Shown here piece by piece: positions 1-5,714 of a stretch of 5,714 nt of DNA (position 1 is its first letter; each line of letters opens with the position of its first letter). The stretch comes from Methylococcaceae bacterium (GTDB lineage Bacteria; Pseudomonadota; Gammaproteobacteria; Methylococcales; Methylomonadaceae). The position numbers and the translations under genes were made by a program. Location: assembly GCA_947505055.1 (NCBI GenBank), contig CANNLO010000319.1, positions 1 to 5,714 of the forward strand. Direction: 5' to 3'. A model generated the notes under the pieces. That model did not search any database. It was not told where the DNA came from and saw only the letters and a program-made list of their open reading frames with translations.

Positions 1-1820
1 AAGTCTGGAACCGGCGCAAAAACGGTGAAGTGTATGCGGTGATGGAAACCATCAGCGTGGTACGCGATGCCCAAGGTAAAGCCAGTCATTATATAGCCAT
101 GATCTCCGATATCACCTTGCTCAAGGAGCACCAAAGCGTGTTGGAGCACATCGCTCACTACGATGCCCTGACCAATCTGCCCAACCGTGTCCTGTTGGCC
201 GATCGTCTGCGTCAGGGTATGCTTCATAGCAAGCGACAGAAGCACAGGCTGGCCGTGGTATTTATTGATCTGGATGGCTTTAAGGCAATTAACGATAACT
301 ACGGGCATAGAGCTGGCGACCAGTTGCTGATTAAAGTGACTGAGCACATGCAGCAAGTCCTGCGCGAGGGCGATACCCTCGCCCGAATAGGTGGTGACGA
401 GTTTGTCGCCGTGCTGCTGGATCAGCCCTCTATGGTTGGCTGCGAGACCTTACTTAAACGCCTGCTTGCGGCTACTGCCAGACCGGTGCAGTTTGGCAAG
501 CTCAGTCTCAAGGTCTCAGCCAGTATGGGGATAACTTTCTACCCGCAGGAAGAAGTCATTGATGCGGAGCAACTGCTCCGTCAGGCCGACCAGTCCATGT
601 ATCAGGCCAAGCAAAGCGGCAAGAATTGTTACCACTTCTTTAACGTCGAGCTTGACCGGAACCTCCGTGGCCGTTACGAGAGTCTGGGGCGTATTCGTCG
701 TGCTCTGGATGACGGCGAATTCGTGCTGTTTTATCAGCCCAAGGTGAACATGCGTACCGGTAACATCATCGGTGCCGAAGCCTTAATCCGCTGGCAACAC
801 CCTGAAAGACAACTGCTCCTGCCAGGCGAATTCCTGCCGGTGATTGAGGATCATCCGCTGGCCATTGATATCGGCGAATGGGTGATCGACACAGCCCTTG
901 CCCAGATGGAAGCATGGCAGGCTGCGGGACTGGATATCCCGGTCAGTGTCAATGTGGGTGCCCGCCAATTACAGCAAGTAAACTTCGTCGAGCACTTGAG
1001 GGAGACGCTGGCAGCGCATCCCGACATCAATCCACGTCATTTGCAATTGGAAGTGCTCGAAACCAGTGCGCTGGAACTGGTCGGAGCCGCTCAAATCATC
1101 AAGACATGTCGGGAGCTAGGCGTGATGTTTGCTCTGGATGACTTTGGCACGGGCTATTCCTCGCTGACTTATTTGAAACGCCTGCCCGTTACCGAGATCA
1201 AGATTGACCAAAGCTTCGTGCGCAATATGCTTGAGGATCCCGATGACCTGTCTATTCTTGAGGGCGTACTCGGCTTGGCCACCGCTTTTCGCCTCCAGAC
1301 TATCGCCGAAGGGGTGGAGCAGATCGAACACGGTACCGTACTGTTGCAAATCGGCTGTGATGTAGCACAGGGCTACGGCATTGCCCACCCTATGCCAGCA
1401 AACCTGTTGCCCGGTTGGTCGGCGGCCTGGCGTCCTTATCCAGCCTGGACTGAGTCGCCTTCTTACAACCACGATATATTACCGCTGATTTATACCGGCG
1501 TTGAGCACAGAGCGTGGGGGATAGCCATCAGAAGTTACCTCAAGGGCGAGTCTGAAGCATCGCCACCCCAACATAACCTTTCGTTCTGTCGCTTCTGTCG
1601 CTTACTGGAAACCAATACGTTGAGCCGCTTTATTTCGCAACCCGCTTTTGAGGATATTGGGTCCTTGCACCTACAAATGCATGCCTTGGCAAAAGAGCTC
1701 TTTGAGCTTCATGACGCTGGCCGCAATCCCCAGGCGTTGGCAAAGCTTAAAGCATTCTATGAGCTACAGGGTGTCTTGCAGGAAAAATTGAAGGAATTGG
1801 TGCAAAAATACCAGCAATAG
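1..1820 (+). CDS. PAS-GGDEF-EAL-CZB cyclic-di-GMP cyclase/phosphodiesterase (5' end outside window)
   Basis: This is a bifunctional c-di-GMP enzyme, open from the window edge (codons in frame from base 3), so the true start lies upstream. Residues are counted from the GTG at 30, which is probably internal. The end of a PAS/PAC domain is seen first (WNRRKNGEVYAV before the GTG, then HYIAMISDIT at 20-29). The GGDEF domain follows (about 43-205) with an intact GGDEF motif at 121-125 and an RxxD product-inhibition site at R112-D115. The EAL domain (about 217-460) keeps E250-A-L, N308, E341, D370-D371 in DDFGTG, K391, E427 and Q447, so hydrolysis looks possible. The C-terminal ~110 residues fit a CZB zinc-binding domain, with H493, C520, H547 and H551 as likely ligands. 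The stop is TAG at 1818. No transmembrane segment is visible in the part present. Domain calls are confident; which activity dominates is unknown. A kinase relic follows directly downstream. Confidence 0.95.
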   Translation, partial: VWNRRKNGEVYAVMETISVVRDAQGKASHYIAMISDITLLKEHQSVLEHIAHYDALTNLPNRVLLADRLRQGMLHSKRQKHRLAVVFIDLDGFKAINDNYGHRAGDQLLIKVTEHMQQVLREGDTLARIGGDEFVAVLLDQPSMVGCETLLKRLLAATARPVQFGKLSLKVSASMGITFYPQEEVIDAEQLLRQADQSMYQAKQSGKNCYHFFNVELDRNLRGRYESLGRIRRALDDGEFVLFYQPKVNMRTGNIIGAEALIRWQHPERQLLLPGEFLPVIEDHPLAIDIGEWVIDTALAQMEAWQAAGLDIPVSVNVGARQLQQVNFVEHLRETLAAHPDINPRHLQLEVLETSALELVGAAQIIKTCRELGVMFALDDFGTGYSSLTYLKRLPVTEIKIDQSFVRNMLEDPDDLSILEGVLGLATAFRLQTIAEGVEQIEHGTVLLQIGCDVAQGYGIAHPMPANLLPGWSAAWRPYPAWTESPSYNHDILPLIYTGVEHRAWGIAIRSYLKGESEASPPQHNLSFCRFCRLLETNTLSRFISQPAFEDIGSLHLQMHALAKELFELHDAGRNPQALAKLKAFYELQGVLQEKLKELVQKYQQ

Positions 1821-1861
1821 CTGGAAGAAGTTGAGGCTATCCACTTAAACCCGGACAGCTT

Positions 1862-1960
1862 AATGAGGACATAGAAGTCAGAGTAAAAGACAATGGCCCC
1901 GGCATTCCTGAAGATCAGCAACAGCAACTATTAATGCCTTTTTACAGCACCCAACAGAAG
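1862..1960 (+). pseudogene. Histidine kinase HATPase domain relic
   Basis: A + strand frame open from 1835 to the TAA at about 2030 reads EVRVKDNGPGIPEDQ at 1874-1918 and then MPFYST at 1934-1951. This matches the G1 box (DxGPGIP) of a sensor histidine kinase ATP-binding domain followed by the usual PF(Y/F)ST segment. The histidine phosphoacceptor region, the N box and the GxGLGL G2 box are all missing. The frame upstream is closed by a TGA at 1832, and the downstream residues do not resemble a kinase. No start codon or ribosome binding site is seen. I infer a decayed fragment of a two-component kinase gene, cut at both ends. The motif match is strong for so short a stretch; the original family member cannot be named. 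Confidence 0.7.
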
Positions 1961-2467: not shown

Positions 2468-3961
2468 ATGGCACATGAAAAGCAGAGCAGCAATGTGCTT
2501 GTGGATTCTATTGATGTATTTCCATGGAATGAACATTTCAATACCGGAATACCTATCATCGATGAACAACACCAAAGACTGGTAATGTTAATAAATCGAC
2601 TGGCCAGTCATATAGCTCTCGGTTCAGATGACAAAGAATTAAATCTCCTTTTCCAAGAGTTGTTCGACTATTCGGTTTATCATTTCCAGACAGAAGAAGC
2701 TATTTGGCATGAGTATTTAACGAGGGACTCCCTGGAAATCGAGCATAAAGAAGAGCATAGCAATTTTATAGCGACTGTTCTTAATCTAAAAGCTAAAGAG
2801 AATACCCATCCATCCTCTGCATCAGAAGGCAATACGATCGAGGAAGTTCTGTCATTCCTGATTAGTTGGTTAGCTTTTCATATCCTAAAAAAAGACAAAT
2901 ACATGGCCTTGGTAGTGCAGGCCATTCAAAGTGGAATGCCACACGAGCAGGCAAAGATCCAAGCAAAGAAACAATTGCATAGTGGGATGGAAGCACTGAT
3001 AAATATTATGCTCTTAACTTACGGTAATCTTGCCACTAATGCCATGCAGTTGATGAAAGAGGTTGTCGAGCGCAAGCGAGCAGAACAAAACCTTCGCCTT
3101 ATTGCCGAGCATCTGGATCAAGCAAATCAGTATCTGGAAAAGCAATATACCGATTTCATCAGCGTATTATCACGCATTATTGAAATGCGGCCAGGCATAA
3201 AATGTGGACAATCAAAATATATCGCCGGAAAAGCCTTGCTGGTTGCCCGTAATCTTGGCATGGCCCCTGAAAAGGTAAAAGATATTTTTTATGCAGGCTT
3301 ACTTATACAGATCGGAAAAATGAGTTTGCCGGATACCTTGCTGAGTATACCTTTTGACGTATTGCCTTTCGTCAGCAAAAAAAAACATTTGAAACATTCG
3401 GTTGAAGGTGAGGCTTTATTGAAAGGGTTAACCAAATTAAATGGCGCATCCGTTTTAATTCGGCATCAATACGAAAACTATGATGGCTCGGGCACCCCGG
3501 ATGGCTTGGCTCAACAAGAAATTCCATTAGGATCGCGTATCCTCTCAGTTGTCAGAGACTATATTACATATCTTGATACTTCAAAAACAAAGGACGCCAT
3601 AGATTTTAATAACGCAATCAAAAAACTAAAAGCTGGACAAGGAAGCCTTTATGATCCTGATGTCGTCAATGCTTTTCTTGATGTGATCAAAGAGGAGATA
3701 GACATTGTAGATAACCTCCCAATACTTAATAAATCATGGAAGAGAAGTCAATTATGGGATACATCGGAGAGTCGTAGCTTGGCGAGTCTGGTTATAGACA
3801 TTCCATTGAACAAACTTAAACTCGGAATGAAAATAGAAAGTGTCTATTTTGATAATAAGCCGTATATTAAAAACTGCATCGTGGATGAAAAAATACTTAA
3901 GAATATTATGTCATTAACAGAGAATACCGGTACAGAACCCCTTATTAAAGTTATATTCTAG
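2468..3961 (+). CDS. Bacteriohemerythrin fused to a degenerate HD-GYP domain
   Basis: A 497-residue cytosolic protein with no signal peptide or membrane segment. Residues 19-150 form a bacteriohemerythrin with the full di-iron ligand set: H35 (IDEQH), H72 and E76 (HFQTE), H93 and H97 (HKEEH), H138 and D143 (HILKKD). Such domains bind O2 or respond to NO or redox state. A helical linker (about 185-228, with the PAS-linker-like VVERKRAEQNLR) leads to an HD-GYP-like domain (about 226-415). There the usual LLHDIGK is LLIQIGK at 278-284, the expected HHE is QYE at 334-336, GYP is GTP at 342-344, and the first metal histidine is Q248. H310, K284 and the DGSG segment remain. A small C-terminal domain follows (about 440-497). 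I infer a sensor whose output domain binds or signals without hydrolysing c-di-GMP. It starts after a good GAGGT site and stands alone, converging on the channel gene. The fold is confident; the signal and output are unproven. Confidence 0.93.
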   Translation: MAHEKQSSNVLVDSIDVFPWNEHFNTGIPIIDEQHQRLVMLINRLASHIALGSDDKELNLLFQELFDYSVYHFQTEEAIWHEYLTRDSLEIEHKEEHSNFIATVLNLKAKENTHPSSASEGNTIEEVLSFLISWLAFHILKKDKYMALVVQAIQSGMPHEQAKIQAKKQLHSGMEALINIMLLTYGNLATNAMQLMKEVVERKRAEQNLRLIAEHLDQANQYLEKQYTDFISVLSRIIEMRPGIKCGQSKYIAGKALLVARNLGMAPEKVKDIFYAGLLIQIGKMSLPDTLLSIPFDVLPFVSKKKHLKHSVEGEALLKGLTKLNGASVLIRHQYENYDGSGTPDGLAQQEIPLGSRILSVVRDYITYLDTSKTKDAIDFNNAIKKLKAGQGSLYDPDVVNAFLDVIKEEIDIVDNLPILNKSWKRSQLWDTSESRSLASLVIDIPLNKLKLGMKIESVYFDNKPYIKNCIVDEKILKNIMSLTENTGTEPLIKVIF

Positions 3962-4123: not shown

Positions 4124-4150
4124 TACATCACCCAAACCCTGGTCGAATGC
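4094..4150 (-). pseudogene. Beta-carbonic anhydrase relic
   Basis: Read on the - strand in a frame different from the channel gene, the bases just past that gene's stop encode AFDQGLGDVLSVRIAGKG and then TGA. This closely resembles the conserved beta-carbonic anhydrase segment FDQGxGDxFxVRVAGN, which normally sits just after the zinc-binding CxDSR motif. Both zinc-ligand motifs (CxDSR and HxxC) are absent, no start exists, and the downstream - strand DNA is not recognisable. I infer the remnant of a carbonic anhydrase gene that once followed the bestrophin gene. Only 18 residues support this, so chance is not excluded, though the run of matches is long. Confidence 0.55.
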
Positions 4151-5070
4151 TATGTTTTCGGTTGTTCCAGTAACGCGAAACAATGAAGTTTTATACTGTC
4201 GCAAATTGTATGCAAGGGTAAGTGACTTAAATTTTGGGTGTCGAATGGGTTTTGTAGCTCAATACCAATTCTGTCCAAAGACAACAAGGGATAAGCGACT
4301 AGTAAATAAATAAAAACGGCACTGAATCCCAGGTTTTCTATTAATGAAAACGGCAGCAATAATAAAAAAATCAAAATAAACCGCCGGGCTTTGATGGCAT
4401 AAACTACGGGCATAGGCGTTTTAAGGATTCTTTCACAACCACCCATGTGGTCAATCAGCAAAATACGTTGTCCTTCCAGTTTTTCAAAAACAAAGCCATC
4501 AATATGATTGCTAAACCGAGCCTGCTGTAATAAAGACGCTATTTTGCTAACAACAAACAGCGGCATGTGGCCAGCAGATTTCAGTGCCTCAAGTTCCTGT
4601 TGACTCAGTAAATCGGTTAAATCATCCAGGTTCTTACTATTGCGTAAAGATTCTCTAGTTGCAAAAGAAAATGCAACCGTCCATTTCACCATTTCTTTAC
4701 GCCATAGGCTCTCTTGAGGGCCGCTATTCAAAACCTCACTGTAATTTAAAGCCTGAATGACCAGGTTTCTGCTTTGGTTAACAATGCCGCCCCATAATTT
4801 TCGCGCCTCCCACCAGCGTTCGTGACCGGTATTGGTTCGAAACACCAGAACCAAACCGAGTACCACGCCGGTATATTCAAACGGAGTCACAGCAAGATGC
4901 GGCAAGGGCAGCCAGTATTGATCAAATACAACTATGAGTAAACAATAACAGGTCATTAACAGCAGACTGGGAAAAATGCGTGGCGTAACTGAACCTCGCC
5001 ACATCAGTGCGCCACGCAAAAAACCGGGTGATTCATCCTTATTGCTATGTAACTGTCTAGAATCTTTCAT
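4150..5070 (-). CDS. Bestrophin-family anion channel
   Basis: Bestrophins assemble as pentameric membrane channels for chloride, bicarbonate and similar anions. The 306 residues (from the ATG at 5070) match the bacterial family (PF01062, YneE/UPF0187 type, about 300 residues). Visible are a hydrophobic segment at about 32-51, a second at 65-78 leading into FRTNT (77-81) and RWWEARKLWG (85-94), then a soluble helical region, CERILKTPMP (212-221), a hydrophobic stretch at 231-262, and the IGIELQNPFD signature (268-277) near the C terminus. I chose the ATG at 5070 because AAGAG lies 8 bases ahead of it. An in-frame ATG at 5106 would add 12 residues but has no clear ribosome binding site. It is transcribed towards the hemerythrin gene. 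The carbonic anhydrase relic right after its stop codon suggests bicarbonate as a substrate, which is inference only. Confidence 0.92.
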   Translation of the reverse strand: MKDSRQLHSNKDESPGFLRGALMWRGSVTPRIFPSLLLMTCYCLLIVVFDQYWLPLPHLAVTPFEYTGVVLGLVLVFRTNTGHERWWEARKLWGGIVNQSRNLVIQALNYSEVLNSGPQESLWRKEMVKWTVAFSFATRESLRNSKNLDDLTDLLSQQELEALKSAGHMPLFVVSKIASLLQQARFSNHIDGFVFEKLEGQRILLIDHMGGCERILKTPMPVVYAIKARRFILIFLLLLPFSLIENLGFSAVFIYLLVAYPLLSLDRIGIELQNPFDTQNLSHLPLHTICDSIKLHCFALLEQPKT

Positions 5071-5078
5071 TTTTATAT

Positions 5079-5083
5079 CTCTT
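5079..5083 (-). promoter_or_regulatory. Ribosome binding site deciding the bestrophin start
   Basis: On the - strand AAGAG stands 8 bases before the ATG at 5070. The upstream in-frame ATG at 5106 is preceded by GCGGTAGCA, which is a weak site. This favours the shorter product. Confidence 0.55.
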
Positions 5084-5106
5084 AAGGCTAAAATTTTAGA
5101 ATTCAT

Positions 5107-5555: not shown

Positions 5556-5714
5556 CTACTTTCCCGCCGAAATCGACACGACTATGTCCCAACAGGGTGC
5601 CGGTTGCGAAAGCGAGATCGATTAATGACACTTGATAGTCGCCTATGGCGCGGACTTCGCGTAACTGCGCTTCACCGAGGCGAGTGAGGGTTTCCAGCAC
5701 TTCGGTCATGGTTC
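5545..5714 (-). CDS. TolC-family outer-membrane efflux protein, C-terminal end (5' part outside window)
   Basis: The gene runs off the right edge of the window. The last ~55 codons are present, ending at TAA (5545-5547). The visible residues include EVLETLTRLGEAQL, then REVRAIGDYQVSLIDLAFAT and GTLLG. This is the typical last long helix of TolC/OprM-type outer-membrane channel proteins, where the usual pattern is LLxAxxxLxxAxxDYxxALxxLxxATGxL. Such proteins form the trimeric exit duct of RND, ABC or type I export pumps. The short tail after the helix (residues about 41-54) is unremarkable. The in-frame ATG at 5709 is almost certainly internal. The rest of the pump should be sought beyond the window. 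The family is confident from the motif; the substrate is unknown. Confidence 0.75.
   Translation of the reverse strand, partial: TMTEVLETLTRLGEAQLREVRAIGDYQVSLIDLAFATGTLLGHSRVDFGGKVGGS

Follow-up and report, generated by a model that had tools for sequence, protein, structure and literature searches.

Hemerythrin (Hr) sensors placed on enzymes of cyclic di-GMP (c-di-GMP) metabolism are already known, as are degenerate HD-GYP regulators of the NosR and HnoD type. The gene considered here joins the two on one chain. It lies on a 5,714-nucleotide stretch of DNA from a Methylococcaceae bacterium (contig CANNLO010000319.1, assembly GCA_947505055.1), called the window below in its whole length, and it encodes a bacteriohemerythrin domain followed by a degenerate HD-GYP domain (HD*). 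What is new in this Hr-HD* protein is the direct fusion, apparently as a two-component shortcut. No report of Hr joined to a degenerate HD-GYP domain was found in the open-licence literature searched, which is weak evidence of absence. The homologs of the window protein would place it in or near Methylobacter.

Bhr-HD-GYP from Ferrovum sp. PN-J185 likewise has an N-terminal Hr domain and a C-terminal HD-GYP fold; as described in the passages cited, it carries iron in both domains and hydrolyzes c-di-GMP when reduced (PMC9388753). Methylococcales proteins with the same layout (L063–L065) keep the HD, HH, and GYP motifs, whereas the window protein has lost the ligands of the metal site in its HD-GYP domain. 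Bhr-DGC of Vibrio cholerae also couples an Hr sensor to an output related to c-di-GMP (PMC9388753), but that output is an active GGDEF domain. HnoD of Shewanella oneidensis has a degenerate, noncatalytic HD-GYP domain (PMC6335343) and offers a comparison of how the protein works only; it is a kinase-controlled response regulator, unlike the window protein. DvhD of Desulfovibrio vulgaris has an HD-GYP fold without catalytic metal ligands as well and tied as best structural match to the window model. It is a PAS-linked membrane receptor that binds c-di-GMP, and most of its contact residues differ from those of the window protein. The NosR-type proteins (family NF053512, of NosP–NosK–NosR) share with the window protein a degenerate HD-GYP domain of the same lineage, with the RHQYE motif common to L029, L030, and L031. 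NosR has a receiver and is driven by a kinase, whereas the window protein has no receiver and carries a fused Hr domain instead. In the portion of PMC12570481 used here, NosR is described as probably degenerate, and its altered HD-GYP domain is proposed to act on a phosphodiesterase or a diguanylate cyclase.

The lost active site and its conservation

The hemerythrin half carries all seven di-iron ligands (H35, H72, E76, H93, H97, H138, and D143; HHEHHHD), as an earlier note on this DNA had rightly stated, and the same seven letters recur in all 41 Hr domains compared. It scores above the cutoffs of the bacteriohemerythrin families NF033749 (88.8 bits; cutoff 84) and TIGR02481 (85.6 bits; cutoff 51.75) and of Pfam Hemerythrin (residues 26–145, 44.4 bits; cutoff 25.3). 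The second half matches Pfam HD_5 over residues 233–399 (106.7 bits; cutoff 27.2).

Published residue lists for PmGH (from PMC4159591) and DvhD (from PMC13090378), taken from the parts of those papers that give them, were transferred through alignments of the PDB sequences, which located 17 of 17 PmGH and 11 of 11 DvhD residues by letter. Of PmGH's eight metal ligands, a single one, H250, has a counterpart in the window protein, H310. Six are exchanged (E185 for I244, H189 for Q248, H221 for I280, D222 for Q281, H277 for Y335, and D305 for R363), and H276 corresponds to Q334 in the ungapped motif register; a gapped HMMER alignment instead sets H333 at H276, in which case two of the eight ligands are kept. 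K225, which is not a ligand, is kept as K284, and D183 and D308 have changed. Of the HD pair, tandem histidines, and further ligands of an active HD-GYP phosphodiesterase, one, at most two, of eight ligands are left. The earlier note had placed I280-Q281 at the HD pair, Q334-Y335 at the tandem histidines, Q248 at the first metal histidine, and T343 at the tyrosine of GYP, all correctly; comparison with the active enzyme widens the loss to I244 and R363 and bears out the picture of an intact Hr sensor on a presumably dead HD-GYP domain.

A residual or altered phosphodiesterase working with few metal ligands could draw on the retained HD-GYP fold and on H310, K284, and possibly H333. At least six of the eight ligands are changed in the window protein, however, and in the results cited from PMC4159591 single alanine changes of the PmGH ligands, E185 and D305 excepted, nearly abolish activity, which leaves this explanation very improbable.

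The homolog search scored the 7997 candidates with the most shared words, and the best 120 of 483 matches were listed; setting aside 12 without a match to the HD half leaves 108 relatives. Of these, 107 lack the HD pair and have Q334, and the exception, P0115, is canonical, with HD, HH, and GYP kept. A similarity cut thinned the 120 rows to a tree set of 65, and a nonredundant set of 59 rows excludes four active proteins and two near-copies and includes three NosR-type proteins. Across these 59 rows Q334, H310, G342, P344, and I352 are invariant, K284 is present in 58, and E336 and D364 are present in at least 95%. Other positions of the former active site are looser: the place of H221 holds I in 29, M in 15, and L in 10 rows, the place of Y285 is variable, and 45 of the 59 rows have Q at the place of Q248.

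Because the loss is common to 107 of 108 relatives and comes with a conserved RHQYE replacement, the window protein is, by this comparison, a pseudoenzyme under maintenance and not a gene in decay. The substitutions are not private to the window copy, and the earlier argument for selection over decay stands. A decaying gene with a functionless HD half would explain the lost catalytic residues, but the frame is open over 497 codons, the whole family shares the conserved replacements, and the C-terminal segment is conserved too. Decay was rejected on the conserved replacements and is scarcely credible.

Lineage and origin of the fusion

By its residues, the window HD* is of one lineage with the NosR-type response regulators, already described as degenerate, a membership that the earlier note did not foresee. 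It has the replacement motif of L029–L031, and residues 196–495 are 58% identical to the receiver-HD* protein of Methylobacter tundripaludum (locus L011). The L011 protein scores 481 bits against the NosR family NF053512 (cutoff 400), and L029 (529 bits) and L030 of Paraburkholderia (556 bits) are also above the cutoff; in L030, FIST and kinase genes stand beside the NosR-type gene, divergent from it. Hr-HD* proteins match the family by their output half only (203 bits for L002, 189 for the window protein). The window match covers model positions 136–358 only, and no receiver was found in this protein. Two genes past the NosR-type gene of L029, from a gammaproteobacterial metagenome-assembled genome (MAG), lies a small GTPase-like gene (4181–4843; Arf family, 39 bits).

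The two-component form, likewise unforeseen in the note, pairs an Hr kinase with a receiver-HD* protein. From 32 loci, those of Methylococcales records with an HD* frame of 438–549 amino acids make up the 18 receiver-HD* loci. Not counted among them are the Hr-HD* loci L001–L007, the fragment L020, the HD*-alone loci L021 and L022, the NosR-type L029–L031, and L032, where a cut HD* frame comes after an Hr kinase. For L011, Pfam served to check the receiver and kinase domains, and its kinase (596 amino acids) has Hemerythrin, PAS, HisKA, and HATPase_c; in the other loci, assignment followed frame size and sequence cluster. In 15 of the 18 loci a gene from a single kinase cluster stands upstream on the same strand, no more than 3 kb away, and in 11 it bears Hr; the Hr match is partial in L017, and the kinase frame is short in L027. 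Receiver-PAS and HDOD genes often precede the Hr kinase, and a compact row of receiver-PAS, HDOD, Hr-PAS kinase, and receiver-HD* is seen in L011 (5948–10924), with similar rows in L009, L010, L012, L014, and L019. A gene of the GGDEF-EAL cluster precedes receiver-HD* in L008, L015, and L016 (receiver-GGDEF-EAL in L015). Directly after receiver-HD*, L010 (11017–11955) and L011 (11186–12121) have a second HD* gene without a receiver; the HD*-alone proteins form one clade (100). In Methylomonas denitrificans, bhr-66, a 1785-bp gene of Hr-PAS type beside response regulators (excerpted from PMC12607906), resembles the L011 kinase by size and layout only. Its product is a kinase-type protein unfused to HD*, unlike the window protein.

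The Hr half has another source: residues 14–213 are 66% identical to the Hr-PAS-GGDEF-EAL protein P0099, versus 30% to the kinase Hr domain. The window protein seems to short-cut the Hr-kinase/receiver-HD* pathway, with the junction in the linker helix. P0016 is a second fusion, in which residues 1–306 are 74% identical to the Hr-PAS part of the kinase and residues 280–591 are 67% identical to HD*; in quick trees its Hr domain groups with those of the kinases (SH-aLRT 96) and its HD* with the receiver-HD* proteins (98). It is one member sequence on two contigs, and an assembly error is possible. At least eight members have a receiver-Hr-HD* layout, with a receiver weakly similar to that of receiver-HD* (36% over 61 amino acids). 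A single origin for all window-type Hr-HD* proteins is possible: the approximately unbiased test did not reject it (p 0.294), on an HD* tree that has long branches and does not place the window domain firmly. Since the pairing of Hr and HD* recurs, in two separate fusions (window type and P0016) and in upstream Hr kinases, both in cis and in operons, it supports a probable signaling link from Hr to HD*.

Within the genus searched, 7 of 23 genomes have Hr joined to HD*, in two cases in a frame that could also accommodate a receiver in front, and five of the seven also have a frame of receiver-HD* size. An order-wide search of 301 genomes drawn from the larger order, with at most five candidates scored per genome, listed matches to both halves in the same seven genomes and at least three more, and the three listed have canonical HD, HH, and GYP. 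Presumably living as well as dead Hr-HD-GYP proteins thus occur within the order, and those dead ones that turned up here are of the NosR line.

Possible outputs of the pseudoenzyme

The favored proposal, given an even chance, is that the protein is a switch that works through protein interaction under redox or oxygen control, with an EAL or GGDEF-EAL enzyme as its most likely target. Its di-iron Hr domain would change state with O2 or redox conditions, as in studied Hr sensors, and the signal would pass, presumably within a dimer, down the long predicted helix to HD*. Because HD* has lost its metal-holding residues, it would act by binding another protein. Binding to the likeliest partner, an EAL or GGDEF-EAL enzyme, would raise or lower that enzyme's turnover of c-di-GMP, in the manner of HnoD on HnoB; HnoD is described, in the passages cited, as lacking phosphodiesterase activity and as suppressing HnoB by direct interaction (PMC6335343; PMC8846402). 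The protein probably arose by domain shuffling that bypassed the receiver and kinase of the Hr-kinase/receiver-HD* pathway, as the identities of the two halves suggest. Candidate kinds of target include an Hr protein with GGDEF-EAL in one frame, found in at least four of the seven Hr-HD* genomes, and Hst, a Methylobacter PAS-EAL-GGDEF protein clustered with hypoxia-induced hcp-hcr and a hemerythrin gene (as excerpted from PMC6977074).

Several points weigh against the interaction switch. The EAL and GGDEF-EAL partners are candidates only, and the HnoD precedent concerns the mode of action. A receiver-GGDEF-EAL-type gene lies between kinase and receiver-HD* in only 3 of the 18 loci, and an Hr kinase was undetected upstream in 7 of them. 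None of the seven related Hr-HD* loci has a GGDEF-EAL-cluster gene next upstream on the same strand (longer than 200 amino acids, within 3 kb); the window's own GGDEF-EAL gene, 647 bp upstream of Hr-HD*, was rejected as an operon partner on this count and may be a chance neighbor. Finally, the invariant residues H310, K284, and Q334 of the former pocket could equally signal a ligand site.

Which ligand such a site would hold divides two further explanations. In a redox-gated c-di-GMP receptor, the metal-free pocket would bind c-di-GMP in the way DvhD does, and the output would depend jointly on this ligand and on the state of the Hr domain. By sequence alignment, two of the eight canonical DvhD contacts are identical in the window protein (L299 and K304), and P288 is kept at the bridging site, where R241 stands in place of the lysine and the arginine is lost. 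The other six contacts differ (Y523/I244, Y621/T343, M646/Y368, R650/S372, Y652/T374, and E668/Q391, DvhD/window). One of the three PmGH substrate contacts is kept, K317 as K375, but this position is glycine in 104 of 107 relatives, and Y285 and R314 are lost. A receptor of this kind is unlikely. Both it and a protein-interaction switch had been offered in the earlier note; the contacts weaken the former, and the latter has the closer precedents. Slightly less probable is a former active site retooled for another small ligand, a nucleotide or other metabolite, integrated with O2 or redox state. The positions at and near the old site are among the most conserved of all, as this would predict, but their conservation may be structural.

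As a general input, nitric oxide acting through NosP or H-NOX was rejected: FIST (NosP type) occurs in only two and H-NOX in only one of eight related genomes searched, mostly MAGs and perhaps incomplete. Nitric oxide as the specific signal, another option of the earlier note, is left unsupported by the same counts.

Gene surroundings and significance

Features of the window are collected in Table 1. By eye, GAGG at 2456–2459 resembles a ribosome-binding site for the Hr-HD* gene. The alignment behind the structure model (A2) used 61 of the 120 listed proteins. Folded alone, the C-terminal segment reached a predicted local distance difference test score (pLDDT) of 78.8, and Foldseek gave no structural match for it (best E 0.63).

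Table 1. Positions of the Hr-HD* gene, its parts, and its neighbors in the window
Feature	Position	Strand	Basis
Hr-HD* gene, 497 amino acids	2468..3961	+	Open reading frame with ATG start; P0002–P0015 (among the matches listed) align over 97–99% of length
Bacteriohemerythrin (Hr) domain, residues 18–147	2519..2908	+	Seven di-iron ligands all present
Long linker helix, residues 159–239, with fusion junction at about 196–213	2942..3184	+	Helix in structure model; two BLASTP matches overlap at 196–213
Degenerate HD-GYP domain (HD*), residues 233–399	3164..3664	+	Pfam HD_5; ligand loss; matches to DvhD and PmGH structures
Q248 at metal histidine position (PmGH H189)	3209..3211	+	Q in 95 of 107 relatives
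I280-Q281 at HD pair (PmGH H221-D222)	3305..3310	+	Position 281: Q in 98, K in 9 of 107
H310, retained metal-ligand position (PmGH H250)	3395..3397	+	H in 107 of 107
R332-H-Q-Y-E336 replacing tandem histidines	3461..3475	+	R 106, H 101, Q 107, Y 103, E 107 of 107; also in three NosR-type proteins
G342-T343-P344 replacing GYP	3491..3499	+	G and P invariant (107 of 107); between them F 74, L 20, V 5, S 4, Y 2, T 1
Conserved C-terminal segment, residues 440–497	3785..3958	+	
PAS-GGDEF-EAL protein, cut by window start	3-1820	+	GGDEF, I-site (RxxD), EAL, and other EAL motifs intact
Bestrophin-type channel gene	4150-5106	-	Bestrophin_2, 250 bits

The PAS-GGDEF-EAL protein at the window start has a C-terminal stretch like a zinc-binding CZB domain, below the Pfam cutoff (22.4 versus 29.4 bits). 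Some 5 kb upstream of Hr-HD* in L007 there is a PAS-GGDEF-EAL gene, and in four of the seven related Hr-HD* loci the next same-strand gene belongs to an aminotransferase cluster (Pfam run on L002). Between the PAS-GGDEF-EAL and Hr-HD* genes of the window, positions ~1850–1954 (+) read like the ATP-binding G-box of a histidine kinase amid stop codons, which we take to be perhaps the remnant of a kinase gene; similarity was too weak (best match E ~0.2) to accept it as the lost Hr kinase. The frame at 5560–5714 (-), which runs off the window, looks by eye like what is presumably the end of a TolC-type outer-membrane protein.

Hr-PAS-GGDEF-EAL proteins occur in Methylobacter relatives (among the matches listed, P0087, P0088, P0092, P0098, P0099, and P0110–P0114). 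A 2022 review states, in the passage cited, that an Hr-linked EAL phosphodiesterase had not yet been discovered (PMC9388753).

With sensor and pseudoenzyme on one chain, the way a degenerate HD-GYP domain signals could be tested with O2 or redox state as the sole variable, and neither kinase nor phosphotransfer would be needed. The protein looks like a direct fusion that replaces a two-component pathway in methanotrophs, dwellers of oxic–anoxic boundaries. A wider and more doubtful possibility is that Methylobacter and its kin repeatedly collapsed an O2-sensing two-component path, made up of Hr kinase, receiver, and pseudo-phosphodiesterase, into Hr-HD* chains. The window pseudoenzyme, because its Hr half came from an Hr-PAS-GGDEF-EAL enzyme, might then pair with such an enzyme by way of the sensor module they have in common and adjust that enzyme's c-di-GMP activity to the O2 or redox state.
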